64,000 nt of DNA. Origin: Cyclobacteriaceae bacterium. Lineage in GTDB: Bacteria > Bacteroidota > Bacteroidia > Cytophagales > Cyclobacteriaceae. Position 1 is the stretch's first letter. Each line of letters starts with the position of its first letter. The position numbers and the translations under genes are program-made. The DNA is taken from the NCBI GenBank assembly GCA_019638395.1, contig JAHBTX010000003.1:124001-188000 (forward strand), written 5' to 3'. Positions 13,072-46,937 of the stretch are shown piece after piece. The notes under the pieces were generated by a model that was not told the DNA's origin, did not search any database, and saw nothing but the letters and a program-made list of their open reading frames with translations.

Positions 13072-13132
13072 ACTAATTGATATCGAGATGGTGTTAACTT
13101 CCTATCAAAAGTGCACGGAATTTTAAACCGAT

Positions 13133-13156
13133 GGTATTACATAAATAGGTAATACC
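13133..13156. promoter_or_regulatory. Palindrome upstream of the 9.8-13.1 kb surface-protein gene
   Basis: GGTATTAC and GTAATACC form a perfect 8-bp inverted repeat with an 8-bp spacer. It lies 62-85 bp upstream of the start codon at 13071 and directly after the stop of the response-regulator gene. Size and position suit an operator or activator site. The sequence differs from the TCACAT/ATGTGA palindrome upstream of other surface genes. Regulator unknown. Confidence 0.45.
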
Positions 13157-13158
13157 CA

Positions 13159-13785
13159 TTACACTAAACGCTCCCGAATAGCTTTGCTTACGGCTTCGGT
13201 CTGGGAATGGACGTGTAACTTTTCGTAAATTTTTTTGATGTGTGCCCGAACAGTATCAACTGTAATGGCAAACTCTGCAGCCATTAGTTTATAGCTGTTT
13301 CCCTTACTGAGAGAAGTAAGAATTTCGTTTTCGCGGGTAGTGAGGTGATACGGATTAGCTGAAGGTTTTTGCATGGCTGCAATTACCATAAAAGCAATAG
13401 TGGGCGACATGGGTGCACCACCGTTTAATACTTCATCAATAGATTCAAATAATTTGGTGGACAGATGTTTTTTGAGCAAGTAACCAGAGGCTCCGGCCCG
13501 TAGTGCATCAAATACGTGCTGCGTATCGTCAAAAACGGTAAGCATTAAAATTGGAATTTTACTTCCTGTAGCACGAATGCGGATTACGGCTTCAATACCA
13601 TTGCGCCCCGGCATATCTATATCCATTAAGATAATATCCGGATGTAGTTCGGCAATCTGAGTTTCAGCATGCAATACATTTTCGAAGGCGGCCGCAACCA
13701 CAAACCGTGGGTCGAGCCGGAGCATGCTGCTGATACTTTCGCGCAACAGGGTGTTATCTTCGTATATAAGTACCGATACTGCCAT
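13159..13785 (-). CDS. NarL/LuxR-family response regulator
   Basis: 208 residues. The receiver domain (1-120) has the phospho-acceptor Asp55 in ILMDIDMPG, the switch Thr in MLTVFDD and the conserved Lys in GYLLKKH. The C-terminal GerE/LuxR helix-turn-helix (about 145-205) carries LTTRENEILTSLSKG and ITVDTVRAHIKKIYEKLHV. It should bind DNA when phosphorylated by the TPR kinase encoded 47 bp upstream on the same strand. It is a close paralogue of the regulator at 40844-41470: identical length and near-identical HTH (VDTVRAHIKKIYEKL against IDTVRTHIKKIYEKL). The surface-protein gene just downstream is a plausible target. Confidence 0.93.
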   Translation of the reverse strand: MAVSVLIYEDNTLLRESISSMLRLDPRFVVAAAFENVLHAETQIAELHPDIILMDIDMPGRNGIEAVIRIRATGSKIPILMLTVFDDTQHVFDALRAGASGYLLKKHLSTKLFESIDEVLNGGAPMSPTIAFMVIAAMQKPSANPYHLTTRENEILTSLSKGNSYKLMAAEFAITVDTVRAHIKKIYEKLHVHSQTEAVSKAIRERLV

Positions 13786-13832
13786 TTAAAAGACAAAATA
13801 AAAATTATTCAATCGTAAGGGCTATACCCCAA

Positions 13833-15842: not shown

Positions 15843-15905
15843 GAAATTGAAATTTACCCAAGTGCAAGCGGATTTGCAATGTGGTAGCGTGAAGGATATT
15901 CATAC

Positions 15906-18900
15906 TTATCGCTTCAGCACCAAAAACCCATGTTGTGTTTTACCAGTTGATTTAAAAAAGATTTTGTAGAAGTAAGTTCCGGAAGGAAGTTCATTTCCAT
16001 TTTGGTTCAGGCCTCTGAAGGCATTGGCCTCCTCATAATTTTCAACTTCAAATACTTTGCTACCCCAGCGGTTGTAAATGGTTACCGTGTTTTCGGGTTC
16101 TAATGCTTCTATATTTTCAATTCTGAAGTAAGGGTTTTTATCATCGCCATTGGGTGATACAGCATTGAAGATTTCAAGTTCGCCTGATACCTCGATAGAC
16201 AAAATTTGTGTAGTACATTCCCCAAGATCATCGCATACGCTGATAGAGACTTGATCATTTCCGGTAAAAGTTATTCCTCCATAATTGAGCACTAATTGAT
16301 TGGCACCATTTATAGAAGCGCTTGCACCTTGGGTTGAAGTAGACGAAGTGAGTTGGAGCGTGGAGAGATCAAGATTGTTATCCGGATCGGAGAGTAGTGG
16401 AATTAAATCGATGGTTACAATACCCCCAACATTAACGGCCAATGTGCTGGCAACAATAACCGGAGGTTGATTGGTAGTTGTTGTTACAGTAAAATTACTT
16501 GCGCTAGTGGCTGTGTTTCCTGCAACAGTAACGGTGATCGTTCCCGTTGTTGCTCCAACAGGGACAGACGTAGTGATGGAAGTTGCTGTACTTGCTGTAA
16601 CAGTCGCTGCTGTTCCATTAAAAGCGACAAGGTTATTTGCTGGCGTTGTGTTAAAATTTGTTCCGGTTATGGTAACGGTTGTGCCGATGGGGCCTGAGGT
16701 TGGTGTGAAGGATATAATGGTAGGAGGTAGAATAGTGACTGTAAAATTAGTTGTACTGGTTGCCATATTTCCAGCCACGCTTACAGTTATCGGGCCTGAT
16801 GTTGCTCCAGTAGGTACAGTAACGGTAATGTTAGTGGTTGTGCTCGCTATAACTGTTGCGGTTGTGCCGTTGAATTGAACAATGTTATCAGCAGGGATAG
16901 CACTAAAATTTGTTCCAGTGATGGTAACAGTTATACCAACCGAGCCGGATGCAGGTGTAAAGGAGGTAATGGTGGGTATTGGTAATGAAATTTTGTTTTC
17001 AAACACCATCAACGCATTTACCGGAGCAACGGCACCACCGGAAGCAACAATTAAAATATCGGGCTTTTGATCGGAGTTAATATCCGCAATGCTCAATGCT
17101 TGTGGATTTCGCCCGAGTGCGTAATTGACAGGTGTTGCAAAACTAACTGTTCCAGATGTGCTGGTGTTTTTAAAAACACTAAAAGTACCAGGCCCTGGAT
17201 TAGGTTGATGAATAACAACAACTTCAGCTTTGCCATCACCATCTAAATCCTGTGACGCGATACTGTAGCCTTTGTTCAGGCATGTCACATCAACGGCTGC
17301 TGCAAAACTTATGGTGCCAACACTTCCGGTATTTCGGTAAATGGAAATGAAAGCGCTATTGAAATACGTAACGGCCAAATCAGTTTTTCCATCACCATCA
17401 AAATCACTCGCAGTAATGTTGTATGGCTGAAGGCCAGTAACAGCGTTGTGTCCGACAAGTGAAAACGAAGCTGCGGTAATCGGTCCTTTAACTTGCTCGT
17501 TACGATAAATGGTAATGGAATTGGCAACCGTATTCGTAGCAATGAGATCATCGTAACCATCGCCATCAAAATCAGCCGCTGCAATTCCTCCTGCACCATT
17601 CACTTTGGCAAGACCGACAACCGCTTCACTGAATTGTGAAAAATTTCCAATGGGCATATAGGTACCCTTGGAACTCTGGTTGCTGTGTACCCTAATCAAT
17701 GCTGTCCCATCCGTTAGGGCAAAATCAGTCTTTCCGTCTTTATTAAAATCAGAGGTTGCTGCATAATTGAAACCGGTAGGACGTGTAGTTACTCCCGTTG
17801 CAAATGAAATAGAACTGGCGGATGTGTTTTGAAATAAATTAAAGCCACTGTTCAAATCGACTTTACCATCACCGTCAATATCTAATGCTTTTAGGTTGTT
17901 ACCTGAAGAAATAGTTGTGCTTTCTACCGTAAGCGAAGCTGCCGTGATAGGTTGGCCTGCTGTGACATGGGTGTTTTTGAAAATTCTTCCTGTGCTAAAA
18001 TTGTCAACAGCCAATACCTCTACCTTACCATCGTCATCGAGGTCGGCAACATCAATGGCATCACGCACGTTGGTTGATAACGCAAAGTTAATGCTGGGCC
18101 CGAAGGATGAAGTGTTGATAACACGATCAGTAGGGAATGTTAAATTGAAGTGTGAACTAAATGCGGTAAGTCCATGATTCGAGATGGCGAACTTTCCGCT
18201 CATGGCACCAGATGGAACCTCTGTAGTGGTTGATGTATTGGTTGAACTGTTTACAACGGAATTAATTTTATCTAGTCGAATGGTTGGTGATACGTTTCCG
18301 GTAAACATAAAATCACCCGTTAGGGTAACGTTGGTGGATGTATTGCCTGAAGAAGGGGAGATGCTATTGATGACCGGGGCCGGGAAACTTTCATTGTGAA
18401 AAATATAAATTCCTTTTGCCGATGCTGGTATATTGTAGTTTGTATGGCTCAGCATCACCTCGGGTTTATTGTCGCCATCCAAATCAGCAATAAACGGAGC
18501 GGAAGGGTATATGCGAGTTGTAGCACCTACACTGGCCTGAAACAATGTACTGTTGGTAAACGAAGCCGCACTCAGTGCTGTTCCTCCTCTGTTTTGAAAT
18601 ATGGCCATGTCTATATCTCCCGTTGCCAGCACATCGGGTTTGCCATCGCCATTGATATCACTCACAGCAATATGATAGGTGTTAGAAGCCAAATGAGGCA
18701 CTTGAAAGGGAGTTTCAAAGGAAGCAGCACTCAACACACCACCGGAATAAATATTCCTTGAAAAGTAAACTTGCGCACCGCCCCCCCATATCAAATCTGC
18801 TTTGTTATCGGCATCGAGATCTGCAACAGCAAAATTTGTGATAGATGTACCTGTTATGGTGATAGGTGTGTTGAACGAGATGGTGCCCGGTACAGAAGTG

Positions 18901-20474
18901 TTTTCATGAATTTCAAATACACCTCTGGTAGCAATAAGTTCGGGTTTACCGTCACCGTTCAAATCACCTACACTCAAATCGTTGCGCCCATTATTGGGTC
19001 CTATGTACTGCGCATACGCAAAAAGAATATTGCCCGGAGTACTCAAATTCTGGTTCAGCCAAATTCCACCGGGCGATGTTCCGGTAGTGTGGGCGAAATC
19101 AATTCTTCCATCACCATCAAAATCGGCCGAAGTGGTTCGCAGTTGTGATGAGTAATAACCATAAGAAAAAAACTCCGGGCCCGCGAACGATAATGATCCT
19201 GCTGTGCTCGTGTTTCTATACACCACTAAGTAGCCGCCTGTGGGTACGTTGGCGGCTATAGTTATAATATCCAGTCGCCCGTCTGAGTCAACATCGGTAA
19301 CCGTGATCTCGCCCATGCCGGTGGGTGTTCCTCCTGGAAGTGGGATGGTAGCCACAGACAATGAAACAGGCGTTGCGAAAGAAGAAACACCCACTGTGCC
19401 ACCAGTACCTAAATTGCGAAACACATAAATGGTTTGCGTGCCGCGTTCGGAGCCGACCAAATCTACCCATCCATCGCCATCCATATCGCCTGCACCCATA
19501 GTGCCCCCTTGGCTGCTGGTGTTATTTGATATCTCCGTTCCGTTTTGCACAACCGTATTCAAGCCCCGCGAGAGCGAGGCCGGAATAATTTCCCCACCAA
19601 AATCTTTATTGTTATCAAACAGCGGGTTAAAACTCTGCCTTGTTTTGGTGAGTACTCCACTGGTGAGGTTAATAACGGTAATGGGGCCGTGTTGCGCTCC
19701 GGCCGGTATTGTTACAACTAATTGCGTAGCTGTGCCGCTAACGATGGTAGCTTTGGTAGTTCCGAAGAAAACTGCGTTCTGAGCAGCAGTCGCACCAAAA
19801 TTATTTCCGTTAATAGTTACACTTGCTCCGGGTATTCCACTGAGTAGTGAAAATGAAGTTACAACAGGAGCGGGATCTAATATTTTTTGTTCAAGGATAA
19901 CATTATCAATACCCACTACATTGGCGGCATTGGTAATGTACGTGCCGCGAATTTCTATGGTAGCAATATTTGACAGTGCCCGGATGATATCCGTTTTAGT
20001 AGCCAATGCACCACCAGTACCACCCACCCTCCAGCCAGCAGTTTCATCTAACTTGATTGTATACGATGACCAAGCCGGAGCCACAGCTGGTTTTACAACA
20101 AGTGAGAAAACAATATAAAAACCTGGTGCGCCAATGCGAACATCGCCCTGAACAGATGAAAATGTGCCGGCTAAAGCTTGTTGCAAATCAAAACTAAAAT
20201 TCATGCCGTACGATCGTAATGCTTTTTGGCCTAAAAACTTGGCAGGTGCAAACCAACCTTGCGAAGTAGCGGTTGAATTGGATGAGTAGGGAACAGTGGC
20301 GACATACCCACCTGGGTTTCCATTGCTGGCATTGTGGTTAACAGTAACGGGAGAGCCGTTATTCAAAAACGTCCACCCATCAGCATCCGTATCAAACGTA
20401 CTGGTGATTTGGGCGGTAGTGGAATTACTCAGAAATAAACCACAGGCAAAAAGAAAATAGAAAGGAATTTTCAT
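15906..20474 (-). CDS. Giant T9SS type-B surface protein: laminin-B-like, IPT/TIG and FG-GAP domains
   Basis: 1522 residues from the ATG at 20474; the frame is open to 20489, but the ATG at 20474 starts a clean signal peptide (KIPFYFLFACGLFLS to TTAQ). Residues of about 22-205 resemble a laminin-B (laminin IV) domain: FDTDADGW, GNPGGYV, FLGQ, YGMNFSFDLQQ, DETAGWRV and IDNVIL. IPT/TIG domains at about 208-295, 705-790, 1175-1255 and 1258-1335 alternate with two FG-GAP/VCBS blocks (DMDGDGWVDLV and DFDGDGKTDLA type). A cadherin-like module and the gliding-type sorting domain (YNRWGSKVFEVENY to LVLKR) end the protein. It is predicted to be secreted by T9SS to the surface, probably for adhesion or matrix binding. 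Site 20509-20526 is a candidate operator. It closely resembles the next gene. Confidence 0.9.
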   Translation of the reverse strand: MKIPFYFLFACGLFLSNSTTAQITSTFDTDADGWTFLNNGSPVTVNHNASNGNPGGYVATVPYSSNSTATSQGWFAPAKFLGQKALRSYGMNFSFDLQQALAGTFSSVQGDVRIGAPGFYIVFSLVVKPAVAPAWSSYTIKLDETAGWRVGGTGGALATKTDIIRALSNIATIEIRGTYITNAANVVGIDNVILEQKILDPAPVVTSFSLLSGIPGASVTINGNNFGATAAQNAVFFGTTKATIVSGTATQLVVTIPAGAQHGPITVINLTSGVLTKTRQSFNPLFDNNKDFGGEIIPASLSRGLNTVVQNGTEISNNTSSQGGTMGAGDMDGDGWVDLVGSERGTQTIYVFRNLGTGGTVGVSSFATPVSLSVATIPLPGGTPTGMGEITVTDVDSDGRLDIITIAANVPTGGYLVVYRNTSTAGSLSFAGPEFFSYGYYSSQLRTTSADFDGDGRIDFAHTTGTSPGGIWLNQNLSTPGNILFAYAQYIGPNNGRNDLSVGDLNGDGKPELIATRGVFEIHENTSVPGTISFNTPITITGTSITNFAVADLDADNKADLIWGGGAQVYFSRNIYSGGVLSAASFETPFQVPHLASNTYHIAVSDINGDGKPDVLATGDIDMAIFQNRGGTALSAASFTNSTLFQASVGATTRIYPSAPFIADLDGDNKPEVMLSHTNYNIPASAKGIYIFHNESFPAPVINSISPSSGNTSTNVTLTGDFMFTGNVSPTIRLDKINSVVNSSTNTSTTTEVPSGAMSGKFAISNHGLTAFSSHFNLTFPTDRVINTSSFGPSINFALSTNVRDAIDVADLDDDGKVEVLAVDNFSTGRIFKNTHVTAGQPITAASLTVESTTISSGNNLKALDIDGDGKVDLNSGFNLFQNTSASSISFATGVTTRPTGFNYAATSDFNKDGKTDFALTDGTALIRVHSNQSSKGTYMPIGNFSQFSEAVVGLAKVNGAGGIAAADFDGDGYDDLIATNTVANSITIYRNEQVKGPITAASFSLVGHNAVTGLQPYNITASDFDGDGKTDLAVTYFNSAFISIYRNTGSVGTISFAAAVDVTCLNKGYSIASQDLDGDGKAEVVVIHQPNPGPGTFSVFKNTSTSGTVSFATPVNYALGRNPQALSIADINSDQKPDILIVASGGAVAPVNALMVFENKISLPIPTITSFTPASGSVGITVTITGTNFSAIPADNIVQFNGTTATVIASTTTNITVTVPTGATSGPITVSVAGNMATSTTNFTVTILPPTIISFTPTSGPIGTTVTITGTNFNTTPANNLVAFNGTAATVTASTATSITTSVPVGATTGTITVTVAGNTATSASNFTVTTTTNQPPVIVASTLAVNVGGIVTIDLIPLLSDPDNNLDLSTLQLTSSTSTQGASASINGANQLVLNYGGITFTGNDQVSISVCDDLGECTTQILSIEVSGELEIFNAVSPNGDDKNPYFRIENIEALEPENTVTIYNRWGSKVFEVENYEEANAFRGLNQNGNELPSGTYFYKIFFKSTGKTQHGFLVLKR

Positions 20475-20508
20475 GGCCTGAAAGTACACTTTCTCCTGTC
20501 GTAATCAG

Positions 20509-20526
20509 ATCACATGATAATGTGAT
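20509..20526 (-). promoter_or_regulatory. Shared operator-like palindrome, copy A
   Basis: ATCACAT-GATA-ATGTGAT is a perfect 7-bp inverted repeat. It ends 34 bp before the start codon at 20474. Two further copies with almost the same spacing lie in front of the surface-protein gene starting at 25346 and of porP at 28948. The conserved sequence and distance point to one regulator acting on all three genes. Confidence 0.65.
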
Positions 20527-20537
20527 GTTACTTCAAT

Positions 20538-23500
20538 TTACCGTTTCAGCACCAAAAACCCATGTTGTGTTTTACCAGTTGATATGAAAAAGATTTTATA
20601 GAAGTATGTACCCGAAGGAAGTTCGTTACCATTTTGATTTAAGCCCCTGAACGCATTGGCTTCTTTATAGTTTTCTACTTCAAATACTTTACTACCCCAG
20701 CGGTTGTAAATGGTTACAGTGTTTTCAGGTTCTAATGCTTCTATATTTTCAATTCTGAAGTAGGCATTTTTATCATCGCCATTGGGCGATACAGCGTTGT
20801 AGATTTCAATTTCACCAATCACGTTTATTTCTAACGTTTGCGTGGTACAGGCTCCAAATACATCGCACACGCGGATGGTAATTGCATCATTACCAGTAAA
20901 TGAAAGTCCGGTGTAATTAATTAACAAGTTGGTACCATTAATGGAAGCTGTGGCTCCGCTTTGTGGTTGCTGCACAATCGTTAGGGAACTTAATACAAGA
21001 TTGTCATCCGCATCCGAAATCAAACTGAGCAGATCAACTGTAATGGATTGACCAAGCGTAGTGGATAAAGCCGTAGTGTTGATAACCGGAGCTGTATTAA
21101 CACAAGGTTCGGGCACAATGGTTACTATTAACTCATCCGAAACCTCGCTACTGCAACCATTTGCATTTACTACTAATACCGAATAGATGTCGCTAGCGGT
21201 AACAGTAATAGTTTGAACAGACCCGAACGGATACCCTGAACTATCAAACCATTGATAATCGCTAAAGCCGGCTGGGGCCGAAAGCGTAAGCACGGTAGAG
21301 GCACAAGCGGTAACTTCGCCACCTACCGGAGTTACACTTGCCGTAATAACAGGCTTTGCCGGTGGTGTGCTGATGATGGCAGTTACGGGTACTGGCACAC
21401 TTTCGCAAAATGTACTTCTTAAAGAAACATGATAGGTTGTATTGGCTGTTAAGGAAGGCGTAATAAAAGTTTCATTTTGTTCAGCAGCAATGAGCGTGAG
21501 TGGTGAACCGGAGTACCAGCGATAATCACCGGGGCTTCCACCCGAAGCGGTGAGTAGTACCACACCAGGGCCACAACTAACTCCGTTTGTAACATCAGGT
21601 GGTGAAGGCAAACTGTTAAACACAAGATTGGCTGAATTGGTAGTTACAGGTGCAGCAAAGTCGCCCGAGATAACACAGTGGTATTCGCCCGATTCAGATG
21701 CCGTTACGTTGCTGACGGCAAGGGTAGGTGAATTAACACCGCTGAATTTGGTGTTATTCACCAAATCAACAAACACACTGCCATCAAACTTCTGCCATTG
21801 ATAGGTAATGTTGGTGGTACCCGATGCAGCCGTAGTAAACGAAGCCGTGCCACCTTCGCAGGCATAGTAGGGTGAAGCAGGTTGTTGTGTGATGGTGATA
21901 GCCACCGTGGGCACAAGGTTTTCATATACCACCAATAATCCTGCAGCACGGGTGAGAATAATTTCAGGTTTACCATCTAAGTTCAAATCGCCAGTGGTGA
22001 TACCACGCGGTGCAGTAACGGTGGTATTGAATGGTGCTGCAAATGAAGCAGCCGTTAATGCTCCGCTGGTATGAATGTTTTTAAAAATCGAAAAGCGATT
22101 TCCACTTTCGCTGGTGGTAATGATTTCAGGTTTACCATCGCCATCTAAATCGGCAATGGTGGCTACTGTAGTTGCGCTGGGATTGGTTAAATCAATTCGT
22201 GTAAAACTGATGTTGCCTGCAGTGCTGGTGTTGTGGAAAATGGTCAGCATCGTATTATTGGTTCCGGTTCCATGATAAAGCAGTAGGTCAAGTTTTCCGT
22301 CTTGATCAAAATCACCAGAGTACAATCTGCCAGGATTATCGCCTGTGGGCAAATCACCAACAACCGAAAATTGGGCAGTACTTAGAGGGAAACCCCCATT
22401 GTTTCGCCACACGCGCATGTTGTCTGATGTAGGATTTGTGCTTGCAAATTCTACAAAGCCATCATTATCAAAATCTCCAACAGCAGTTCCCCCATTCACA
22501 GCAGGTTTGGATAACCCTAATGCAGCCCCAAAAGTAGCAAACGCACCTGTTCGGAACGGTCCAGGCTTGGAAGTATTTCTATAAAGCAATAATGTTGCGC
22601 CACCGGTGTTAGCGGCAATCACATCTGTTTTTCCATCTAAATCAAAATCGGCCCAGTTTTGATTGCCACCACCAGCACCGTTTACATTATTATCAAACTC
22701 TATTTCATTGGTGGTGGTTGAATTACGAAACAACGCTTGTTGAGATAAAATATCAAGCCGCCCATCTTCATCCAGATCAACCATGCGTAGGTTCAATGCT
22801 GACTCATTAGTGGTGTCGCTAATGATGAATGAACTGGATGTAATCGCTCCGGTGGTATGCACGTTCTCAAACGACCACGCATAGTTTCGGATTATTCCGG
22901 TTACTACGCGCGACTCGGCAATCAATTCAGGTTTTCCATCACCATTTAAGTCAGCAGCTTCTACATCATAATCGGCACCGGTTACTGGAAATGTAACGGG
23001 TGCTGCGAATGAAGTGCCATCGAAAGTTACACCCGATGAAAATGTTGTAGAGAATGGTAAATGATAGCGTGAAGTCCGGTTATCGCGGGTAACGCTTACG
23101 CGCTCATAGCTGGCACCGGGTGGAACGGTAACCGTGATTTCGTTTTTGCTGGCGGTTAATACATTTGCTTTTACTGCACCAAACCAAACCGTATTCTTTG
23201 TAATGTCGGAAGAAAATTTATTTCCGGTTATTGTAACAGTACTACCCACAGGGGCTGCCAGTGGCGAAACCGTATTGACAGAAATGTTGGGAGCTGCAAT
23301 GGTTTGATTGGTGTAAAGGATTAATCCATGCTCACCACCATCGCTACTTGCAAAACCCACCACATCGGGAAGCAGATCGCCATTCAAATCACCAATTAAT
23401 GGTATGGCTAAAGCACCATTTGAAGTTTCTTCGTACTCGATCAACGGTAAGAAAGATGAAGTGTTAAGTATGCCGGGCTCAACTTTACTTTCAAAGACTC

Positions 23501-25346
23501 CAAAACTATAACCGATACTGCCGCTATTTAATGCAATTAAGATATCCGGTTTACCATCTCCATTCAGATCAGCAACCCGTTGTGAGTAAGCCCTGCCAAC
23601 CTTTGATAGAATAATATCAGCATCAAAAGATGCAGTACTAAGTACACCAGTCGTGTGAATATTTTTTTTAATTACAAGGTCATAATCATTAAAGCCATTG
23701 ATGCGATAGTATAGAATGTCGGGTTTGGTATCGCTATCTAAATCTGCGAGGGTAATTCCACTTACTGCACTGCCCGGAAAATTTAAGGGTGCTGCAAATT
23801 GAATATTGCCTTCCGTGGAGATGTTCTCTAACAGATTAAAACTACCGGAAGCTACTACCATAATTTCTGGCTTACCATCGCCATTTAAATCTTTTGTGGA
23901 AACAGCACCACCCGATGCATTTAAAAAACGAAGAGTAGCAAACTCTATGTTGCCAGGCGTACTGATGTTTTGTGCAAAATATAGTCCGCTGGAGTTGAGC
24001 AGGAAATCCAACCGACCATCACCATCTAAATCTGCCACATCAAATCCGGAGCAAAAGATACCCACATTATAAAATTGCTCAGCTGGTTCGAATGAAACAG
24101 TTCCGGGCGTGCTAATATTTCTGCTTATAGTAAAGCCTCCGGTTAGTTGAGGACTTGCACCTCTGAAATAAGTAGCGATGTCAATCTTTCCATCATTATC
24201 GAAGTCGTGAAGAATGGTACCATTCGAGTTACCTTGGCCCAGTTCTCCTGAAGGAATCTGAACCTTAGGAGCAAATGATGATGAAGATAGATTTCCGGAT
24301 TGGCCCTGATTCAGAAAAATTGCAAACTCACCCGGATCTTCAAAGGCTACAATATCCAGCCAGCCATCGCCATCAATATCGCCCATCGCGCCACCGGCTA
24401 ACCCGTTATCATTAAAATCGCCATACGGAACAATTACATTGTTGCTGAATGAACCCGGTAACAGATGCCCAATAAAATCGGGATCGGAAAAAATTAATGG
24501 TTGAAAGTTGGATGTTGAAACGGCAACAAGACTAGCAGCAGTATTGATAACAGAAATGGGTGCCAATGTGGCCGCGGATGGAACTTGAACTGTAAGTTGA
24601 GTGGCGTTACCTGAAACAACCGTAGCTCTAACCAAGCCAAAATATACCATGTTGTTATCTTTTGTTGAGCCGAAATTACTTCCGGTTATGATTACGGTTT
24701 CACCCGCCAAAGCGGAGGCTGGTGCGAATGAGGTAATGACAGGGCTTGTTTCAAGGGTTCGTTTTTCTAATGTTACATTATCCAAACCACTGGTATAGCC
24801 GGTGGTGTTGCTGTATTTGCAACGAATACGAATACCGGTAATGTTGGCGAGTACGATTTTGATTTGAGCTTTCAAGGCTACTGATCCGCCTACCGAATTC
24901 CAGCGCCAGCCAGCAGTTTCATCTAACGCAATGGTGTAGCTTGTCCATGCCGGGCTTACTGCGGGCTTGGTAGCGAAATTGAAATGAAGCGTGTTGCCCC
25001 CGCTGTAGATGATAACATCACTTACGGTATTATCAGTGCCGGCAACAGATTGCTGTAAATCAAGTTTTAAGTTTGATCCGTATGAAAAATCATAGTTGCC
25101 AAAAAAAGTGCTAGGTGCATTCCAATACCACGCAAAGCTGGTGTTTACACTTCCACCCGCTGTGGGCGGAGCTACAGATACAAACCCGCCTGGATTACCA
25201 CCTGCAACTTGATGATTAAAGGTAGCGGCAGTACCACCTGTGTGTGTAGCGGTCCAACCTTCGGCACCAACATCAAATGTGATGGTAATTTGGGCATGTA
25301 CTGCTAATGAAGAAAAAAACAGGAGAATGGCAAAGAATGGTTTCAT
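20538..25346 (-). CDS. Giant T9SS type-B surface protein: laminin-B-like, IPT/TIG, FG-GAP and Ig-like domains
   Basis: 1602 residues from the ATG at 25346. A TTG at 25352 in the same frame would add only two residues, and the ATG gives a better signal peptide (KPFFAILLFFSSLAVHAQ). Domains in order: laminin-B-like about 20-195 (FDVGAEGW, GNPGGFV, YGSNLKLDLQQ, DETAGWRW, LDNVTL); IPT/TIG about 200-285; FG-GAP/VCBS block; IPT/TIG about 715-795; second FG-GAP block; three Ig-like modules (about 1180-1450, including GEYHCVISG and DYRWYSGSP); cadherin-like module; gliding-type sorting domain ending LVLKR. It is predicted to be a T9SS-exported surface adhesin-like protein and is the largest in the window. 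It shares its first half and its sorting domain with the neighbour at 15906-20474, pointing to tandem duplication. Confidence 0.9.
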   Translation of the reverse strand: MKPFFAILLFFSSLAVHAQITITFDVGAEGWTATHTGGTAATFNHQVAGGNPGGFVSVAPPTAGGSVNTSFAWYWNAPSTFFGNYDFSYGSNLKLDLQQSVAGTDNTVSDVIIYSGGNTLHFNFATKPAVSPAWTSYTIALDETAGWRWNSVGGSVALKAQIKIVLANITGIRIRCKYSNTTGYTSGLDNVTLEKRTLETSPVITSFAPASALAGETVIITGSNFGSTKDNNMVYFGLVRATVVSGNATQLTVQVPSAATLAPISVINTAASLVAVSTSNFQPLIFSDPDFIGHLLPGSFSNNVIVPYGDFNDNGLAGGAMGDIDGDGWLDIVAFEDPGEFAIFLNQGQSGNLSSSSFAPKVQIPSGELGQGNSNGTILHDFDNDGKIDIATYFRGASPQLTGGFTISRNISTPGTVSFEPAEQFYNVGIFCSGFDVADLDGDGRLDFLLNSSGLYFAQNISTPGNIEFATLRFLNASGGAVSTKDLNGDGKPEIMVVASGSFNLLENISTEGNIQFAAPLNFPGSAVSGITLADLDSDTKPDILYYRINGFNDYDLVIKKNIHTTGVLSTASFDADIILSKVGRAYSQRVADLNGDGKPDILIALNSGSIGYSFGVFESKVEPGILNTSSFLPLIEYEETSNGALAIPLIGDLNGDLLPDVVGFASSDGGEHGLILYTNQTIAAPNISVNTVSPLAAPVGSTVTITGNKFSSDITKNTVWFGAVKANVLTASKNEITVTVPPGASYERVSVTRDNRTSRYHLPFSTTFSSGVTFDGTSFAAPVTFPVTGADYDVEAADLNGDGKPELIAESRVVTGIIRNYAWSFENVHTTGAITSSSFIISDTTNESALNLRMVDLDEDGRLDILSQQALFRNSTTTNEIEFDNNVNGAGGGNQNWADFDLDGKTDVIAANTGGATLLLYRNTSKPGPFRTGAFATFGAALGLSKPAVNGGTAVGDFDNDGFVEFASTNPTSDNMRVWRNNGGFPLSTAQFSVVGDLPTGDNPGRLYSGDFDQDGKLDLLLYHGTGTNNTMLTIFHNTSTAGNISFTRIDLTNPSATTVATIADLDGDGKPEIITTSESGNRFSIFKNIHTSGALTAASFAAPFNTTVTAPRGITTGDLNLDGKPEIILTRAAGLLVVYENLVPTVAITITQQPASPYYACEGGTASFTTAASGTTNITYQWQKFDGSVFVDLVNNTKFSGVNSPTLAVSNVTASESGEYHCVISGDFAAPVTTNSANLVFNSLPSPPDVTNGVSCGPGVVLLTASGGSPGDYRWYSGSPLTLIAAEQNETFITPSLTANTTYHVSLRSTFCESVPVPVTAIISTPPAKPVITASVTPVGGEVTACASTVLTLSAPAGFSDYQWFDSSGYPFGSVQTITVTASDIYSVLVVNANGCSSEVSDELIVTIVPEPCVNTAPVINTTALSTTLGQSITVDLLSLISDADDNLVLSSLTIVQQPQSGATASINGTNLLINYTGLSFTGNDAITIRVCDVFGACTTQTLEINVIGEIEIYNAVSPNGDDKNAYFRIENIEALEPENTVTIYNRWGSKVFEVENYKEANAFRGLNQNGNELPSGTYFYKIFFISTGKTQHGFLVLKR

Positions 25347-25379
25347 ACTCAAATCTCCATAGAAATGAACTTTATGGGT

Positions 25380-25397
25380 ATCGCATGATGATGTGAT
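25380..25397 (-). promoter_or_regulatory. Shared operator-like palindrome, copy B
   Basis: ATCGCAT-GATG-ATGTGAT matches copies A and C except for one base in the left arm. It ends 33 bp before the ATG at 25346, which also supports that start over the TTG at 25352. It lies in the 142-bp gap before the serine-hydrolase gene; nothing else is recognisable in that gap. Confidence 0.6.
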
Positions 25398-25494
25398 GTG
25401 AATTTACAATAAAATGACGATTTCAGTTGAAAATCCTATTTACCTTACCCTGCACTCAATTTTTAGAGAACTAGCTCCAACAGGTCAATATTCA

Positions 25495-27228
25495 TCAATT
25501 CACCTTATCAAACTGATGATGCATTAACCGGGAATTCTGAATATTAAAGCCATTTACCTTTCCCGCTTTATCATACTCAAAATTTATCCACACGCGCGAT
25601 TCTTCATGCTCTCTAAACTCGATAATAAGCCTGAACTCATCGTTGTAAAATGGCTCGAGAATTTTATCGGCAATGGTGGGTCGCTTTACCACTAACTCTC
25701 CAGCGTCATTCATCACAATAGTCCAATAAAAATCGAGGTGCTTACTGTAATACTTCCCTGTAAATTTTTGCAGCTGCGCGTTGGTGTATTTTGTTTTGGT
25801 GGTGGTCTCTCTTTTCCAATGCCAGGTCTCGGTATAATCGCCCTGGTTGTAAATGGTAACGTGCATGGCAGAATCTTTATGCGACTGCGAAAAAACTAAC
25901 CACGCAGGATACTCAGGGTCTTTAAAAATGTTATCGCCTACCTTTAGTAAAGCAATACTATCAGTTGTGGCGAAATGTAAATACAAGCTATCGCCAATCA
26001 CATTAAGTTCCTGATATAGTTTAGGTTCTACGCTGCTTTGAAACGTTAGCTGATTTAATTGGCGGTAGGTGCCTGCATACTTGACTAAATCATTATGCCT
26101 GGTGGGTAATGCTTTGACAGGAAGTTTTGGTGCGGTAACAGGTAATTTTTTTAATTGAAAAATTTCTTCGTAAAGGGCATCAATCTTTTCGTCATATCCG
26201 CCTAAATAATTTCCCAAACAAATGATACTAAGACCTGCTTCAGGTACCCTAGATAAATAGCGCCAGCCGCTCACGCCTTCATGTACAATCATTGCATAAT
26301 TGCCAATGTGTTTTAGCTTTTGGCCAAACGGGTAATCTGTTCCACGCAGCACGGGTATGGGTCGGGACTGTTGCTTTAATCGTGTTGATGCTTTTGCTAT
26401 AAAAGTTGTAGGATCATTATGGGCGGCAGCCCATTTTTCTAGATCGTTGGCAGAGGTAAGCACCTGGTAGTTTCCGCCCGGTGAGGTTTTATCGCGTAGC
26501 CACACATTGTATTTGCCCGGTTGATCGCTGTAATATGAGAAGGCATGATTAGCGATCACCACTTCTTTATTGTTAGGCATTTGGGTCGATGACATGCCAA
26601 GCGGCTCAAAAACTTTTCGCTTTAAGTAAGCCGATAGATTTTCGTTCGATGCTTTTTCAAGAATGAGACGAAGTAAACCATAATCAGAATTGGAATACAT
26701 GTAGCCTTTGCCCGGTTCAACTTGGGGAGTAGGTTGGGTGTATAAAAAATTTAAGAACTGCGATACATCAAGGCGGTTGCTCATGCTGGCTTGCATAAGC
26801 ACCAGCGTTGCCCACTCATCGCAAAAGCCGGAGCTGTGATTTAGTAAATCTAGTATGGTTACATTTTCACTCCAGGCTGGCAGCTTCGGAAAATATCTGC
26901 TCACCTTATCGTTTAAAGTCAATACGCCATCTTGCTCCAATAAGGCAGCTGCAATAGAAATAAACTCACGCCCTTCTGAATAAGTAATGCCTACAATCGT
27001 GTTGTGCGAAAAAGGAATACCAAATTCAAGATTCGCCATTCCATAAGTCTTCTTTGTAATCACCTTTCCGTTTTGAAGTACGGTAATGGCGTAACCCGGT
27101 GAGTTTTGGTTGTTGAACGATTGAAAGAGCGAATCGATTTTTTTGTCGAGTTTGGCTTTATTGATAATGGATTGAGCAGGTGCTTGAAGAAAGCTTAAAG
27201 CGATAACTAGAATGAATAAGTATCTCAT
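25495..27228 (-). CDS. Serine hydrolase-like protein (beta-lactamase/class C fold) with altered SxxK motif
   Basis: 577 residues with a signal peptide (LFILVIALSFLQAPAQ). Residues of about 25-350 follow the penicillin-binding-protein/class C beta-lactamase fold: YGMANLEFGIPF, then Ser84-Glu-Gly-Arg87 where the family has SxxK, YSNSDYG as the YxN motif, and HEGVSGW as the HxG motif. The lysine that normally activates the serine is thus an arginine. The codon is CGT, so it is not a one-base slip from AAA or AAG. The C-terminal 220 residues form a lipocalin-like or beta-rich appendix (YAGTYRQ, FTGKYYS) seen in many Bacteroidota relatives. It is the last gene of the porP/PIG-L operon, 10 bp after PIG-L. 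It may be a catalytically weak peptidase or a binding protein. Confidence 0.8.
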   Translation of the reverse strand: MRYLFILVIALSFLQAPAQSIINKAKLDKKIDSLFQSFNNQNSPGYAITVLQNGKVITKKTYGMANLEFGIPFSHNTIVGITYSEGREFISIAAALLEQDGVLTLNDKVSRYFPKLPAWSENVTILDLLNHSSGFCDEWATLVLMQASMSNRLDVSQFLNFLYTQPTPQVEPGKGYMYSNSDYGLLRLILEKASNENLSAYLKRKVFEPLGMSSTQMPNNKEVVIANHAFSYYSDQPGKYNVWLRDKTSPGGNYQVLTSANDLEKWAAAHNDPTTFIAKASTRLKQQSRPIPVLRGTDYPFGQKLKHIGNYAMIVHEGVSGWRYLSRVPEAGLSIICLGNYLGGYDEKIDALYEEIFQLKKLPVTAPKLPVKALPTRHNDLVKYAGTYRQLNQLTFQSSVEPKLYQELNVIGDSLYLHFATTDSIALLKVGDNIFKDPEYPAWLVFSQSHKDSAMHVTIYNQGDYTETWHWKRETTTKTKYTNAQLQKFTGKYYSKHLDFYWTIVMNDAGELVVKRPTIADKILEPFYNDEFRLIIEFREHEESRVWINFEYDKAGKVNGFNIQNSRLMHHQFDKVN

Positions 27229-27238
27229 TTTATTTTGA

Positions 27239-28021
27239 TTAAAACTCCTTTTGTAATTCTATTTCTGTTGCAAACTTTCTGAAATAAAGTTTGTTCTCGC
27301 GCCCTTTTTCAAACGCAATCATCTCCTCCATTTCCGCAGTAGAAAACCCACTGGTATAACACCGAATAGCTTGCGCAGCTCGTTGTTCATCTTCGTCTGT
27401 ATAAGTTGTTTCAACATTAAAATACTGATCATCAGCATAGCGCACCCAGCCATCGCCATCGGCTTCTAATGATCTAGTCCAACCAAAATAATAAAGTGGA
27501 TATTGATCAACCCAGCCTTCGCGCAACAATAATTCCGTAACCAGACTACTTACAATAATATGTTCCGGATGGCCATACTCACCATCGGGACCAAAGGTTA
27601 TGATGAGATCGGGTTCTAAATCAACAATACTTTGTTTTAATTTTTCTCTGAATTGATTTCCGGTTTCCACAGCATCACGCACACCATCTTTTGTACCATG
27701 CTTTCGATCCATACTGTTGAAGGAGTAGAAGATTGGTTTTTCAATGCTTAATTTCTCGCACGAGCAAACTACATCTCGTTGTTTGGCTTGTGCCACTGAA
27801 TCGGGCGAAGCATTTACAAATCTTGTATCAAACTTTGCATCTACTGCTAAAATGAGATGCACCCGGTCACCCAAACGGGCGTGTTTAGCTAAAGCGGAGC
27901 CAAAGGCAGTTTCATCATCAGGGTGGGCGAGTACAACCAGAATAGTTTTAGATTGGTGTTGCGCATCGTGCTGACAAGCAATTAGGATTAAACTAATGAA
28001 TAGTATAAAATTTCTGATCAT
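27239..28021 (-). CDS. PIG-L/LmbE-family deacetylase, lipoprotein
   Basis: 260 residues. The lipoprotein signal NFILFISLILIAC has its cysteine at 16, so it is probably anchored on the periplasmic side of a membrane. The zinc motif HPDDE begins at His33 (VVLAHPDDETAFG), and the third ligand lies in YGHPEHIIVSS. A glycine-rich Rossmann-like core lies between. Known family members remove N-acetyl groups from GlcNAc-containing substrates such as GlcNAc-inositol or mycothiol and bacillithiol precursors; other members act on secondary metabolites. Lipid-anchored members may act on surface glycans. It sits between porP and the serine-hydrolase gene with gaps of 24 and 10 bp, so the three should be one transcript. 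Substrate unknown. Confidence 0.85.
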   Translation of the reverse strand: MIRNFILFISLILIACQHDAQHQSKTILVVLAHPDDETAFGSALAKHARLGDRVHLILAVDAKFDTRFVNASPDSVAQAKQRDVVCSCEKLSIEKPIFYSFNSMDRKHGTKDGVRDAVETGNQFREKLKQSIVDLEPDLIITFGPDGEYGHPEHIIVSSLVTELLLREGWVDQYPLYYFGWTRSLEADGDGWVRYADDQYFNVETTYTDEDEQRAAQAIRCYTSGFSTAEMEEMIAFEKGRENKLYFRKFATEIELQKEF

Positions 28022-28045
28022 AATCCATAGCCAGGAATGACTAAT

Positions 28046-28948
28046 CTAAAAATTACTCAACGACCGCTCGTGAAAATCAAACGCTGATAGTTGAATACCT
28101 AACATTATTTCGTGCGTAGTAAACTGTGTACCCACCGATTTGTTGGTTGGAATTTCAAACACGTATCCAAATCTGTACTGCTCTTTTAATAAAGTTTGAA
28201 GCAATACGCCATACGTATTGAAGTTGCGTGTAAAAATTCCTGCGGTGTGTATCGCGTTGAAGTTTACATTCATAGCTACATCTACCGATGCCGGTGCTCC
28301 CTTTACACCCCGCAATAAAACCGCTGGCTTTAAACGAATGTGTTCATTCAGATAATGAACATAAGCACCCATTAAATAAAGGTGTTGATTATAGAGATCA
28401 AATTCCTGATTGCCACTTTTGAACGTAGTAGGTAACAAGCGAGGCACCGATAATCCAATAAAATAGTTCTCGCTTTTCAAAGCCAGTCCTGCACCAAGGT
28501 TAATGCGGGTGCCCTGTTCGCCATTTAAGAATAGATCATCAGAAGGATCGTATGGGTTAATGCCCTTCATAGAGTTATTAAAATTTTGTACCCCAGCCTG
28601 CATACCAAAACTCAATGTAGTTTTTTCTAATTGCAGTTTATAGGCAAATGAAGTATTGATTTCGGTTGTGTTCAGACTTCCGATACGGTCGTTGCTCACC
28701 AACAAACCCAACCCAACTTTATTTTGTACCAGCGAAGAGTGCAGGCTGGCGTTTATGGTTTGAGGTTGGCCCTCAAGTCCCATCCATTGGGTACGGTACC
28801 CAACCGAGGCATTGAAGTTATTATTTAACCCAGCGTATGCGGGGTTTAACACCAGCGGATTAAACAGGTATTGTGAATAGAGTGGATCTTGCTGTGCAAA
28901 CGAAAGTGTGGCAAGCAGCAAACAGGCAATGGTGGTTAGGGGTTTCAT
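28046..28948 (-). CDS. PorP/SprF-family type IX secretion outer-membrane protein
   Basis: 300 residues from the ATG at 28948, which starts the signal peptide KPLTTIACLLLATLSFAQ. The mature protein begins QDPLYSQYLFNPLVLNPAYAG, the hallmark of PorP/SprF proteins. Beta-barrel strands follow (GLGLLVSNDRIGSL, SFAYKLQLEKTTLSFGMQ, FIGLSVPRLLP). The frame stays open upstream to 29113, but that part is a relic of a T9SS sorting domain read through by chance. PorP/SprF proteins sit in the outer membrane; paired with type-B sorting-domain proteins they are thought to help anchor or secrete them, as SprF does for SprB. An operator-like palindrome lies 34 bp upstream. Two enzyme genes follow in the same operon. 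Confidence 0.93.
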   Translation of the reverse strand: MKPLTTIACLLLATLSFAQQDPLYSQYLFNPLVLNPAYAGLNNNFNASVGYRTQWMGLEGQPQTINASLHSSLVQNKVGLGLLVSNDRIGSLNTTEINTSFAYKLQLEKTTLSFGMQAGVQNFNNSMKGINPYDPSDDLFLNGEQGTRINLGAGLALKSENYFIGLSVPRLLPTTFKSGNQEFDLYNQHLYLMGAYVHYLNEHIRLKPAVLLRGVKGAPASVDVAMNVNFNAIHTAGIFTRNFNTYGVLLQTLLKEQYRFGYVFEIPTNKSVGTQFTTHEIMLGIQLSAFDFHERSLSNF

Positions 28949-28982
28949 AAACCAAATCTCACCAAAGTATCGGTGCGGGGGT

Positions 28983-29000
28983 ATCACATAATGATGTGAG
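28983..29000 (-). promoter_or_regulatory. Shared operator-like palindrome, copy C (porP)
   Basis: ATCACAT-AATG-ATGTGAG ends 34 bp before the porP ATG at 28948, the same distance as copies A and B. On its other side, 13 bp away, lies the relic sorting-domain end. At copy A the end of a live sorting-domain gene lies 12 bp away, so the whole arrangement is conserved. Confidence 0.62.
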
Positions 29001-29012
29001 AAAAAGTACACT

Positions 29013-29097
29013 TCTGTTTCAGTACCAAACCCATGTTGCGTTTTTTTAGTTGATTTAATGAAGATTTTATAAATATGTGCCCGACCGTAAGGTTCCT
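29013..29097 (-). pseudogene. Relic of a T9SS type-B sorting domain
   Basis: Read on the minus strand, this stretch gives IYKIFIKSTKKTQHGF, clearly the decayed end of the sorting domain found intact in neighbours as FYKIFFKSTGKTQHGF. Two bases are missing in the run encoding GFLVLKR, and the stop codon is lost. Upstream of about 29097 the similarity stops. The rest of the gene is gone and an ATPase gene begins its 3' end at 29166. This suggests that a surface-protein gene once stood directly upstream of porP, as others do elsewhere in the block, and was deleted or replaced. Confidence 0.75.
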
Positions 29098-29165
29098 TTG
29101 CGGGTAGTAACACCTGCTTTTTTTAGTGATGAACTCTGAGGATGTGTTCGTACCGTTGATTTCCT

Positions 29166-30368
29166 CTACGACATTAAAAAGTTGAATGCTGGAACAAGGT
29201 TAATTACTTTGCCTTTAATCTTAAGCATATCCTCTTGCTGTTTGGTAACGATTATGCCCTGTTTCATTTCAAAAAAATCCATCGCCTCCAATAGTCCTTT
29301 TGTTTCACGGTCTTTGTTTTCGGAATGCAGCTGTTCGCAAACTTGAATAAGCATTTTACACTTCTCGTCTTCAAAGACTACAAAATCGCACTCTGTCTGT
29401 TCGCGGAAGTAGGAAAGTTTGTATTTTTTCTTTCTTAAGAACAAGAAAACAATATTCTCTAATAAACGCCCCTTGTCTTTGGTATAGCTCAAACTGTTGG
29501 CATTTACCAAACCGGTGTCAATGGCATACACCTTTCGTGGGTTAACGGTTCTGTTTTTGGCCGACCAGCTAAATCGTTGTAAAAAGAAAAGCAGGTATGT
29601 ATCCTCCAGCCATGATAGATAGTCAGATACTGTATTGGCCGAGCCAACGTTGAATGCTTTTCGAATGCTGTTGTAGGTAACTTCTTTGCCCACATTGGAA
29701 ATCAAAAAAAGTGTTATGTCCAATAATGTTCCTACATTCTTAATTCCATAGCGTATGGCAATATCACGTGACACAATATCTTTTAGAAGCATATGTAGTA
29801 CTTCCGGATTTTCGTCTCGCAGGTATTCTGGAAATCCCCCATGATGAATATACCGCTCAAAAGCAGACATGGTGTTTTTTACTTTGTTGTACGCTAAAAA
29901 CTCAGGATAGGAAAATGGAAACAATTCATGGCGTAAATGCCGCCCGGTAAGCCGTGTGCCCAATTCCTTGCTAAGTAACGAAGCATTTGAGCCTGTAATA
30001 AAAACTTTTTTACCGCGGTCGTGCAGTTGCCTTACATAGATTTCCCATGAACCTACATTCTGTATTTCATCAAAAAAGTAAACTTCCGTTTCTGAACCAA
30101 TTACTTCATCTAATTTTTGAAAGTCGCCCACCACAAAATCATGTACACGAGGGTCTTCAAAATTGAAATACGCAGTGGCTGTTTTATAACGGTGTTTTAC
30201 TTGTTCCATCAGAGTACTTTTGCCACACCTTCGGATACCAGAGATCACCTCCACCTGATTGCCGCTTGTTTTCATCTGACTTATATAGTCGCGTACTATA
30301 AAAGAAGAGATTCTTTTATGCTCCTGTTGAAGCCGGTAGGCTATCTCCACCTCAGATTTTAATACCAT
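29166..30368 (-). CDS. AAA-type ATPase with C-terminal DUF4143 domain
   Basis: 400 residues. The N-terminal ATPase has Walker A GIRRCGKST (44-52) and Walker B VYFFDEIQN with Asp100-Glu101, followed by the sensor segment VFITGSNASLL. The middle holds TGRHLRHELFPFSYPEFL, typical of the family. The C-terminal DUF4143 region (about 200-360) has a winged-helix part (VTYNSIRKAFNVGSANTVSDYLSWLE) and a PD-(D/E)XK-like core: LENIVFLFLRKKKY then FREQTECDFVVF. The family is common in Bacteroidota and archaea as stand-alone, mobile-looking genes of unknown function. It shares no theme with its neighbours. It sits where a T9SS gene body appears to be missing and has its own repeat-bearing promoter region. 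Gain by insertion is likely. Confidence 0.88.
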   Translation of the reverse strand: MVLKSEVEIAYRLQQEHKRISSFIVRDYISQMKTSGNQVEVISGIRRCGKSTLMEQVKHRYKTATAYFNFEDPRVHDFVVGDFQKLDEVIGSETEVYFFDEIQNVGSWEIYVRQLHDRGKKVFITGSNASLLSKELGTRLTGRHLRHELFPFSYPEFLAYNKVKNTMSAFERYIHHGGFPEYLRDENPEVLHMLLKDIVSRDIAIRYGIKNVGTLLDITLFLISNVGKEVTYNSIRKAFNVGSANTVSDYLSWLEDTYLLFFLQRFSWSAKNRTVNPRKVYAIDTGLVNANSLSYTKDKGRLLENIVFLFLRKKKYKLSYFREQTECDFVVFEDEKCKMLIQVCEQLHSENKDRETKGLLEAMDFFEMKQGIIVTKQQEDMLKIKGKVINLVPAFNFLMS

Positions 30369-30400
30369 AGCTTATTTGTTTATACTGTAAATGTACAAAA

Positions 30401-30440
30401 GTTTATTTTAACAGTATGAAATAGTTTATTTTACCAGTAT
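30401..30440 (-). repeat. Direct repeats upstream of the DUF4143 ATPase gene
   Basis: Two 17-bp copies, GTTTATTTTAACAGTAT (30401-30417) and GTTTATTTTACCAGTAT (30424-30440), differ at one base and lie 23 bp apart. A partial inverted copy (ATACTGTAAA, about 30383-30392) lies closer to the gene. They are confined to the 89-bp gap before the ATPase start. Roughly two helical turns of spacing on one face would suit cooperative binding, possibly autoregulation. Confidence 0.5.
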
Positions 30441-30457
30441 ATAGTATTAGGAAAAGA

Positions 30458-31093
30458 TCAACTAAGAATATCGTTCAAAATCTCTGAAATTTCGGAAGCT
30501 TTGTTGACAATCATAAAATGACCGCCTCCATTGATAATGTAATCGGCCTGTTTTGCTGGTAGAATCTTATCTACGCCCCCATGAATTTTTATAGTGTTTA
30601 CAGGCTTGTGGGTGTTTCTCCAACGAACGATTTTATCAATTGCCCACTTTAAGTAAATACGATCTGTAGTTCTAATAATTTCTTTGAGAAGACGTTTCTC
30701 ACCATCATTTGTAATTCCAAATAACCAATAGGTTATTGAATTAATGTACATGAATAAATCTGAAGGGATTAATCTATGAATCCGAAGTTGTCCGGCTACG
30801 CGATATAAAAGTGGAATTTCATACTTAGTAGCTACAGAGGAGATTAAAACGACTTTGCCAAAATCTACTTGCTTAGCGATTTCAGTGGCGATTATTCCTC
30901 CAAACGAAACACCTATAAGTATTGGCTTATTGGTTACGATCTGCTTGCGGATCCTTTCTGAATATGCTTCAATAGATTCAGATACTTCAGGCCTTACCCA
31001 CTCAATGTGAATCAATTCTACATCATCCAGTTTCAGAAAATCAAAGACTCTTTTATCAGCTCCTAATCCACTCAGCAGATAAACAGGTTTCAT
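30458..31093 (-). CDS. Small alpha/beta-hydrolase-fold protein
   Basis: 211 residues without a signal peptide. The fold is suggested by the opening VYLLSGLGADKRVF (oxyanion loop strand) and the nucleophile elbow GVSFGG (Ser in ILIGVSFGGIIATEIA). An IHGGVDKILP segment offers the usual acid position, and NGGGHFMIVNKASE gives the catalytic histidine near the end. The substrate is unknown; it is likely a cytoplasmic esterase-like enzyme. It begins 12 bp after the stop of the haem lipoprotein gene and is probably co-transcribed with it. The short length reflects a reduced lid region. Confidence 0.75.
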   Translation of the reverse strand: MKPVYLLSGLGADKRVFDFLKLDDVELIHIEWVRPEVSESIEAYSERIRKQIVTNKPILIGVSFGGIIATEIAKQVDFGKVVLISSVATKYEIPLLYRVAGQLRIHRLIPSDLFMYINSITYWLFGITNDGEKRLLKEIIRTTDRIYLKWAIDKIVRWRNTHKPVNTIKIHGGVDKILPAKQADYIINGGGHFMIVNKASEISEILNDILS

Positions 31094-41470: not shown

Positions 41471-41516
41471 CTGACATCAAATTAAAGTAGTTGCCGGTTT
41501 TGTTTCTATACCCTAA

Positions 41517-46930: not shown

Positions 46931-46937
46931 ACGCGGT

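Follow-up and report, generated by a model that had tools for sequence, protein, structure and literature searches.

Do three near-identical palindromes ahead of three surface-protein genes form a common operator, and if so, which protein reads it? The question is raised by a stretch of 64,000 nucleotides from a Cyclobacteriaceae bacterium (contig JAHBTX010000003.1, positions 124,001 to 188,000; hereafter the window, with coordinates counted from its first letter). A first-pass annotation had proposed a small regulon of two giant secreted proteins and a PorP/SprF-like protein, with a dedicated binder that might be one of two NarL-type response regulators of the same block (here RR1 and RR2). 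Comparison of the sequence across related genomes suggests, with a probability of about 0.72, that the palindrome is the operator of RR1 and/or RR2, which would activate from a class-II position the genes for type-B cargo of the type IX secretion system (T9SS), for PorP/SprF and for the regulators.

Three palindromes and their genes

The sites and the genes behind them, with domains from Pfam, are the following.

20509-20526, minus strand: putative operator site 1, upstream of the Laminin_B/FG-GAP gene 15906-20474; TTCA (20479-20482) in place of TTTG after 27 intervening bp (N27)
25380-25397, minus strand: putative operator site 2, upstream of the Laminin_B/FG-GAP gene 20538-25346; TTTG at 25350-25353
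28983-29000, minus strand: putative operator site 3, upstream of porP 28046-28948; TTTG at 28953-28956
15906-20474, minus strand: giant Laminin_B/FG-GAP/TIG protein with a CHU_C C-terminal signal (type-B C-terminal domain, CTD)
20538-25346, minus strand: giant Laminin_B/FG-GAP/TIG protein with a CHU_C C-terminal signal
28046-28948, minus strand: PorP/SprF-like outer-membrane protein (PorP_SprF)

The palindromes are real. Each measures 18 bp and precedes a minus-strand gene (ATG at 20474, 25346 and 28948 for sites 1, 2 and 3), and they end 34, 33 and 34 bp from these start codons, as the annotation had it. Its gene identities were borne out as well, with FG-GAP, Laminin_B and CHU_C domains in both giant proteins and PorP_SprF in the third. 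Site 2 has one unpaired position between its arms (TCGCAT/ATGTGA), and the outer base of site 3 is a G. All scans used the inner 16-mer of the palindrome (the box), with which the gaps to the ATG become 35, 34 and 35 bp.

The pattern TCRCATNATNATGYGA occurs exactly three times in the 4,778,027-bp genome, every time in the window, and its reversed control does not occur. This whole-genome count is the stronger test of non-chance, because in the window alone three matches with at most two mismatches (shuffle mean 0.80) are reached in 4 of 100 shuffles. Once two mismatches are tolerated, 48 places in the genome match and 37 match the reversed control, so that in a plain scan the signal is limited to near-exact sites. 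A loose 17-mer palindrome scan of the window stayed at chance level (36 matches, 36.06 expected).

The box is phased to a predicted promoter element

Lining up the sites suggested another constant element, the tetranucleotide TTTG standing exactly 27 bp past the 16-bp box at sites 2 and 3, and this spacing was then tested on two sets of sites not selected on TTTG. Of 62 genus genomes, 24 carry the exact box TCACATNATNATGTGA, at 37 sites in all (one site for the reversed control), and TTTG is found at offset 27 in 22 of the 74 orientations of these sites (runner-up offset, 5). Counted by site, N27-TTTG is present at 21 of 37, spread over 17 spacer clusters (<70% identity), an activator-like fixed place relative to the predicted promoter. 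The phase recurs in the set from the family (32 sites), where 10 of 64 orientations have TTTG at offset 27 (runner-up offset, 4). A sigma-70-type promoter scan yielded nothing useful.

TTTG is the core of the Bacteroidetes -7 element. In F. johnsoniae it occupies -8 to -5, with the transcription start 4-5 nt further (PMC6847099; this and the other papers are cited from excerpts), and with this numbering the box would span -51 to -36, its centre near -43.5. TTTC or TACC frequently follows the box, near the -33 position. An ATG lies 3-4 nt past TTTG in 16 of the 22 phased orientations, one of which (L196) heads no long open reading frame (ORF), and this placement predicts nearly leaderless mRNAs at phased sites. 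Relatives have few messages of this kind: leaderless mRNAs make up 5.5% in F. psychrophilum (PMC9723704) and about 3.7% of the 5' untranslated regions of B. thetaiotaomicron are under 10 nt (PMC7366714).

The annotation had described the distance to the start codon as fixed. Its gaps hold, but the constant element is TTTG at N27 (sites 2 and 3): the promoter element, not the start codon, is the point of constant distance, and the 34-35 bp to the ATG would be a by-product of the predicted near-leaderless mRNAs. Start-codon phase was rejected as the primary constraint, because the ATG distance varies (e.g. 34-35, 54-61 or 102 bp) while N27-TTTG persists at many such sites. Box and N27-TTTG together are a conserved operator-promoter module.

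Genes behind the box

Used as a bipartite pattern, the module brings out further sites in the window, all overlapping or preceding genes of the same block.

41509-41524, minus strand: degenerate box (3 mismatches) upstream of RR2; TTTG at 41478-41481, exactly N27; first arm overlapping the kinase 3' end
13825-13840, minus strand: degenerate box (5 mismatches) upstream of RR1; TTTG at N27; overlapping the kinase 3' end
13137-13152, minus strand: degenerate box (4 mismatches) upstream of the FG-GAP/CTD gene 9793-13071; TTTG at N27
9793-13071, minus strand: FG-GAP protein with a CHU_C C-terminal signal

With at most four mismatches and TTT[GA] at N27, the window has four boxes, and each stands ahead of a block gene: the FG-GAP gene 9793-13071, the 20538 gene, porP or RR2. 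Two more sites bring the set to six, site 1 with its exact box but TTCA and the RR1 site with 5 mismatches and TTTG. Genome-wide, box-N27-TTTG with at most three mismatches has six matches, four of them in the window, against two for the control, and the remaining two fall within ORFs of 679 and 593 aa. To the membership that the annotation had proposed, two giant-protein genes and porP, can be added both NarL-type regulator genes and the FG-GAP gene, which have weaker N27-TTTG boxes; the regulon probably includes these as well.

Across the genus, the genes downstream of the 37 sites comprise 12 PorP proteins, 13 CTD proteins, one regulator and 11 other or unassigned genes. These labels come from BLAST against the window proteins and from a CTD profile built from four of them; Pfam confirmed the label of one DUF418 protein and of two PorP proteins of the genus set, and assigned HEAT_2/cNMP_binding to the L042 gene product. 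The PorP and CTD genes start 34-35 bp from the 16-mer in 20 of 25 cases. At three of the 11 other sites (L042, L185, L187) the box lies 64-67 bp ahead of a gene for a HEAT-repeat/cNMP-binding protein of about 1058 aa (Pfam for the L042 copy), with no TTTG at N27, and these loci are a separate, conserved use of the box sequence.

The exact box is present in 25 of 196 genomes of the family, and the control in six. In six of the box genomes (L017, L018, L019, L020, L028, L043) it stands 54-61 bp ahead of a DUF418-type membrane gene, and five of the six sites have TTTG or TTTA at N27; DUF418 was assigned by Pfam for L043 and from similar N-termini for the other five. A search of a collection of named genomes with exact box-N27-TTTG returned 64 stretches with 66 matches, and 55 of the 64 titles read as Bacteroidota, including Cyclobacteriaceae, Hymenobacter and Flectobacillus. 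An ATG lies at 34-35 bp in 20 of the 66, 11 of them PorP by eye; one of the 20 (L116), a proteobacterial locus inside an ORF, is probably a chance match. At seven Hymenobacter and Flectobacillus loci (L079, L080, L082, L092, L094, L096, L102) the exact module precedes other genes or has no start within 200 bp.

The box tends to occur with the regulator

The two candidate regulators of the block are paralogs and each adjoins a HisKA_3-type kinase; the domains (Pfam) are as follows (HTH, helix-turn-helix).

13159-13785, minus strand: RR1, response regulator, Response_reg and LuxR/NarL-type GerE HTH
13833-15842, minus strand: TPR sensor histidine kinase (TPR, HisKA_3, HATPase_c), beside RR1
40844-41470, minus strand: RR2, response regulator, Response_reg and LuxR/NarL-type GerE HTH
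41517-43520, minus strand: TPR sensor histidine kinase (TPR, HisKA_3, HATPase_c), beside RR2

Orthologs of RR2 (at least 250 bits) are found in 32 of the 62 genus genomes, and the exact box in 23 of these 32 against one of the 30 others (Fisher 9.5e-9). Put the other way, a regulator ortholog is present in 23 of the 24 box genomes; a genome with a partial match (G210; 74% identical, 201.8 bits) was counted as regulator-negative. Boxes precede porP at 12 of the 21 loci (out of 30) with a readable upstream region, and 11 of these 12 are in regulator genomes, as are four of the nine without a box. Among the 196 family genomes, 37 encode an ortholog, and the box occurs in 17 of the 37 against 8 of the 159 without one (Fisher 5.4e-9); the association is weaker there (17 of 25 box genomes) than in the genus (23 of 24). 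Box and regulator share a genome in 11 genera of the family, and none of the six family genomes with a control match has an ortholog.

The sites themselves differ with the regulator. In regulator-negative family genomes 6 of 8 lie inside ORFs. Among the 24 in regulator-positive genomes, two do so only when the ORF is read from a start preceding the real ATG (site 3 and L040:16085), and another (L023) overlaps a kinase end. Fisher's test of this contrast gives 3.1e-5 if none of these three is scored as inside, 0.00075 if two are and 0.0021 if all three are. Over 24 queried genomes the best regulator match is at least 60% identical in 13, 52-55% in 8 and below 50% in 3, and box genomes of Hymenobacter and Flectobacillus carry homologs at 52-55% identity.

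The regulator genes appear to be targets too. Upstream regions were examined for 30 of the 37 matches that reached 250 bits (a single match in each genome), with RR1 of the window handled apart, and the best box in each was picked by mismatches alone. TTTG stands at offset 27 in 18 of them and TTTA in 9, together 27 of 30; a frequent form of the box is TCACATGATTRGGGTA. The orthologs have the recognition helix DT[VI]R[TSA]HI[KR].

A third GerE-domain (LuxR-like) protein with no receiver domain detected is encoded at 49358-50155. It has matches in only 2 of the 62 genus genomes, its own and G238 (E up to 1e-30), and in G238 the homolog is situated between box sites on one contig.

Weighing the explanations

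The small regulon of the annotation, whose dedicated binder might be one of the block's NarL-type regulators, is thus backed by motif enrichment over controls, promoter phase, PorP and CTD targets, boxes ahead of the regulator and co-occurrence. Several observations weigh against the operator reading. Site 1 lacks TTTG, and the -7 elements of the phased sites have the cluster consensus GAGATTTG and not TAHHTTTG, with T-12 in one of 17 spacer clusters and G common at -12 and -10. Eleven of the 37 genus sites precede another kind of gene or no assigned gene, and five PorP or CTD genes start at 7, 19, 96, 100 and 142 bp. The CTD genes 33435-36398 and 44636-47971 of the block have no box in their upstream regions, so the regulon would not cover all type-B cargo. 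Nine of the 32 genus regulator genomes and 20 of the 37 in the family lack the exact box; conversely, 8 of the 25 family box genomes lack the regulator, and the exceptional box genome of the genus (G236) has no such regulator or kinase in the three stretches examined. Related genomes enter the Fisher tests as if they were independent. Most boxes upstream of regulators have a weak or degenerate second arm, with the first arm overlapping 3' codons of the kinase, and 8 of 30 have 0-2 mismatches. Finally, of the two own-genome paralogs that could be read, one departs from the recognition-helix pattern and one fits it, so the helix alone cannot single out the orthologs.

It is unlikely, though worth keeping in view, that the box is an operator at this promoter position bound by another protein, the NarL-type regulator being merely linked to the cluster and itself a target. 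The incomplete coincidence of regulator and box favours this, as do the boxes ahead of unrelated genes in other genera (the DUF418, Hymenobacter and Flectobacillus loci). Yet a regulator ortholog at least 60% identical is encoded in all six genomes with DUF418 sites, in four cases 20-27 kb from the site on the same contig, and the form 6-N4-6 suits the NarL family. The LuxR-like protein at 49358-50155 was ruled out as a general binder by its restriction to two of 62 genus genomes, with further DNA-binding proteins of the genome not all examined. A CRP/FNR-type site was rejected on its arm order: the consensus of that class is TGTGA-N6-TCACA, and here the order is opposite, TCACAT-N4-ATGTGA. 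The same regulator might also act at the same operator as a repressor, the sign of regulation not being readable from sequence. We consider this improbable, because the box, with its centre near -43.5 and in phase with TTTG, precedes the -33/-7 region, and the -7 element is imperfect, which is the usual layout of an activator.

Spread of the motif with duplicated gene ends and promoters, which the annotation had offered as its alternative, explains part of the picture. Sites 1 and 3 have an upstream CTD end in common (score 91, shuffled maximum 45), the stretch 29027-29071 being 84% identical to the CTD ends of the 15906 and 20538 genes, and the RR1 and RR2 sites share kinase 3' ends (score 53, shuffled maximum 42). 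In the remaining 13 of the 15 pairs among the six window sites, however, flank scores reach at most the maximum of their shuffles. Six other genomes supply 10 within-genome pairs, in which identity across the 60 bp upstream is 20-38%. For 25 within-genome pairs, identity is 0.79 for the box, 0.34 for the 27-bp spacer (shuffled 0.28) and 0.32 for the 60 bp upstream, and the phase is common to the 17 spacer clusters. This comparison rules out duplicated flanks as the general cause, leaving them a partial role for sites 1 and 3, and a motif that is nothing but a by-product of duplication is very improbable. We give even less credence to the palindrome working as an RNA hairpin, whether as a 5'-leader element or as a terminator for the gene upstream. 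Pairing of the arms in RNA is possible, and a hairpin appears in the predicted folds of sites 1 and 3; against this, fold z-scores are -0.21, 0.54 and -1.07, site 2 has no hairpin, 13000-31000 has no Rfam match, and the box itself is absent from terminator-like sites. The predicted start also lies downstream of the box, which would not be transcribed from that promoter. With no stable fold and no known RNA family, this candidate was rejected.

A CTD 3'-end remnant (29027-29071, in the stretch 29020-29165) immediately upstream of the putative porP operator, with an AAA_14/DUF4143 ATPase gene (29166-30368) after it, seems to mark a type-B gene that was lost or interrupted beside porP. The final 300 bp of the two giant genes (15906-16205 and 20538-20837) have 85% DNA identity, which suggests duplication or gene conversion of the CTD.

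A proposed switch for surface display

Under the preferred reading, an operator for RR1 and/or RR2, the TPR sensor kinase beside each regulator would drive one or both, presumably by phosphorylation. A regulator dimer would then bind TCACAT-N4-ATGTGA with one protomer per hexamer. With the site centred near -43.5 and exactly 27 bp separating it from the downstream TTTG of the -7 element, the dimer may recruit RNA polymerase from a class-II position, switching on the giant type-B-CTD surface proteins, the PorP/SprF shuttle or anchor and, by autoregulation, the regulator genes.

Tentatively, and with rather less assurance, we suggest a broader picture, in which one lineage of kinases and NarL-type regulators (11 genera with the box) would be a self-regulating surface-display switch that cargo and PorP-like shuttles join through a box at the same phase, with near-leaderless mRNAs. 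Elsewhere the box may have been rewired, for instance to DUF418 membrane genes, and control of T9SS cargo and shuttle by a response regulator would be direct and separate from PorXY-SigP.

A sequence-readable operator would join giant surface cargo, a PorP-like shuttle and a regulator as one unit, and the box could be used to find unlinked regulon members in other Cytophagales. It also opens to test which signal the TPR kinases sense before the surface changes, whether a NarL-type dimer activates from near -43.5 in Bacteroidota, and whether the messages are leaderless. Our literature search found no description of this operator or regulon, though one may be published elsewhere, and the motif strings searched there gave no match.

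Comparison with known systems

The block has the features of a NarL/LuxR-type regulon: a receiver and GerE HTH in the regulator, an adjoining kinase, a dyad site that it would bind, a fixed promoter phase, and co-occurrence with exceptions on both sides. The solved chains closest to RR2 in phmmer are VraR, DesR, ChrA and NarL. Like VraR, DesR and NarL, RR2 has a receiver and a GerE-type HTH over its full length, but it is distant from them in sequence (92-109 bits) and belongs to another organism with other targets.

The nearest parallel for the site is ComA of Bacillus subtilis, a NarL-family response regulator with a NarL/LuxR-type HTH, whose canonical site consists of two inverted hexamers 4 nt apart (PMC4797271), the same 6-N4-6 arrangement as here. 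Its hexamer is TTGCGG, whereas the one here is TCACAT, used as a single class-II box at a Bacteroidota promoter and with other targets. When placed in the class-II position, an inverted repeat gave poor activation by ComA (PMC4797271), which speaks against the activation proposed here and makes the analogy partial.

PorP-like proteins bind, shuttle or anchor type-B cargo, and the pair is often genetically linked (PMC9143113, PMC12618676), so that joint control of both would be sensible. The block contains this same pair of gene products; the excerpts of those two papers mention no operator common to cargo and shuttle. In the papers cited here, control of T9SS runs through PorXY-SigP: PorX does not bind T9SS promoters (PMC5005315) and acts via the extracytoplasmic function (ECF) factor SigP (PMC4800418), so the box regulon would be another route. 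Both systems tie two-component control to type IX secretion. Membership of the block in PorXY-SigP was rejected, as RR1 and RR2 carry a GerE HTH and the promoters carry TTTG in phase, SigP itself not having been searched for. Unlike PorXY-SigP, the system proposed here has a regulator with its own HTH and a palindromic operator, and would act directly, through that operator, on cargo and PorP-like shuttle alike.

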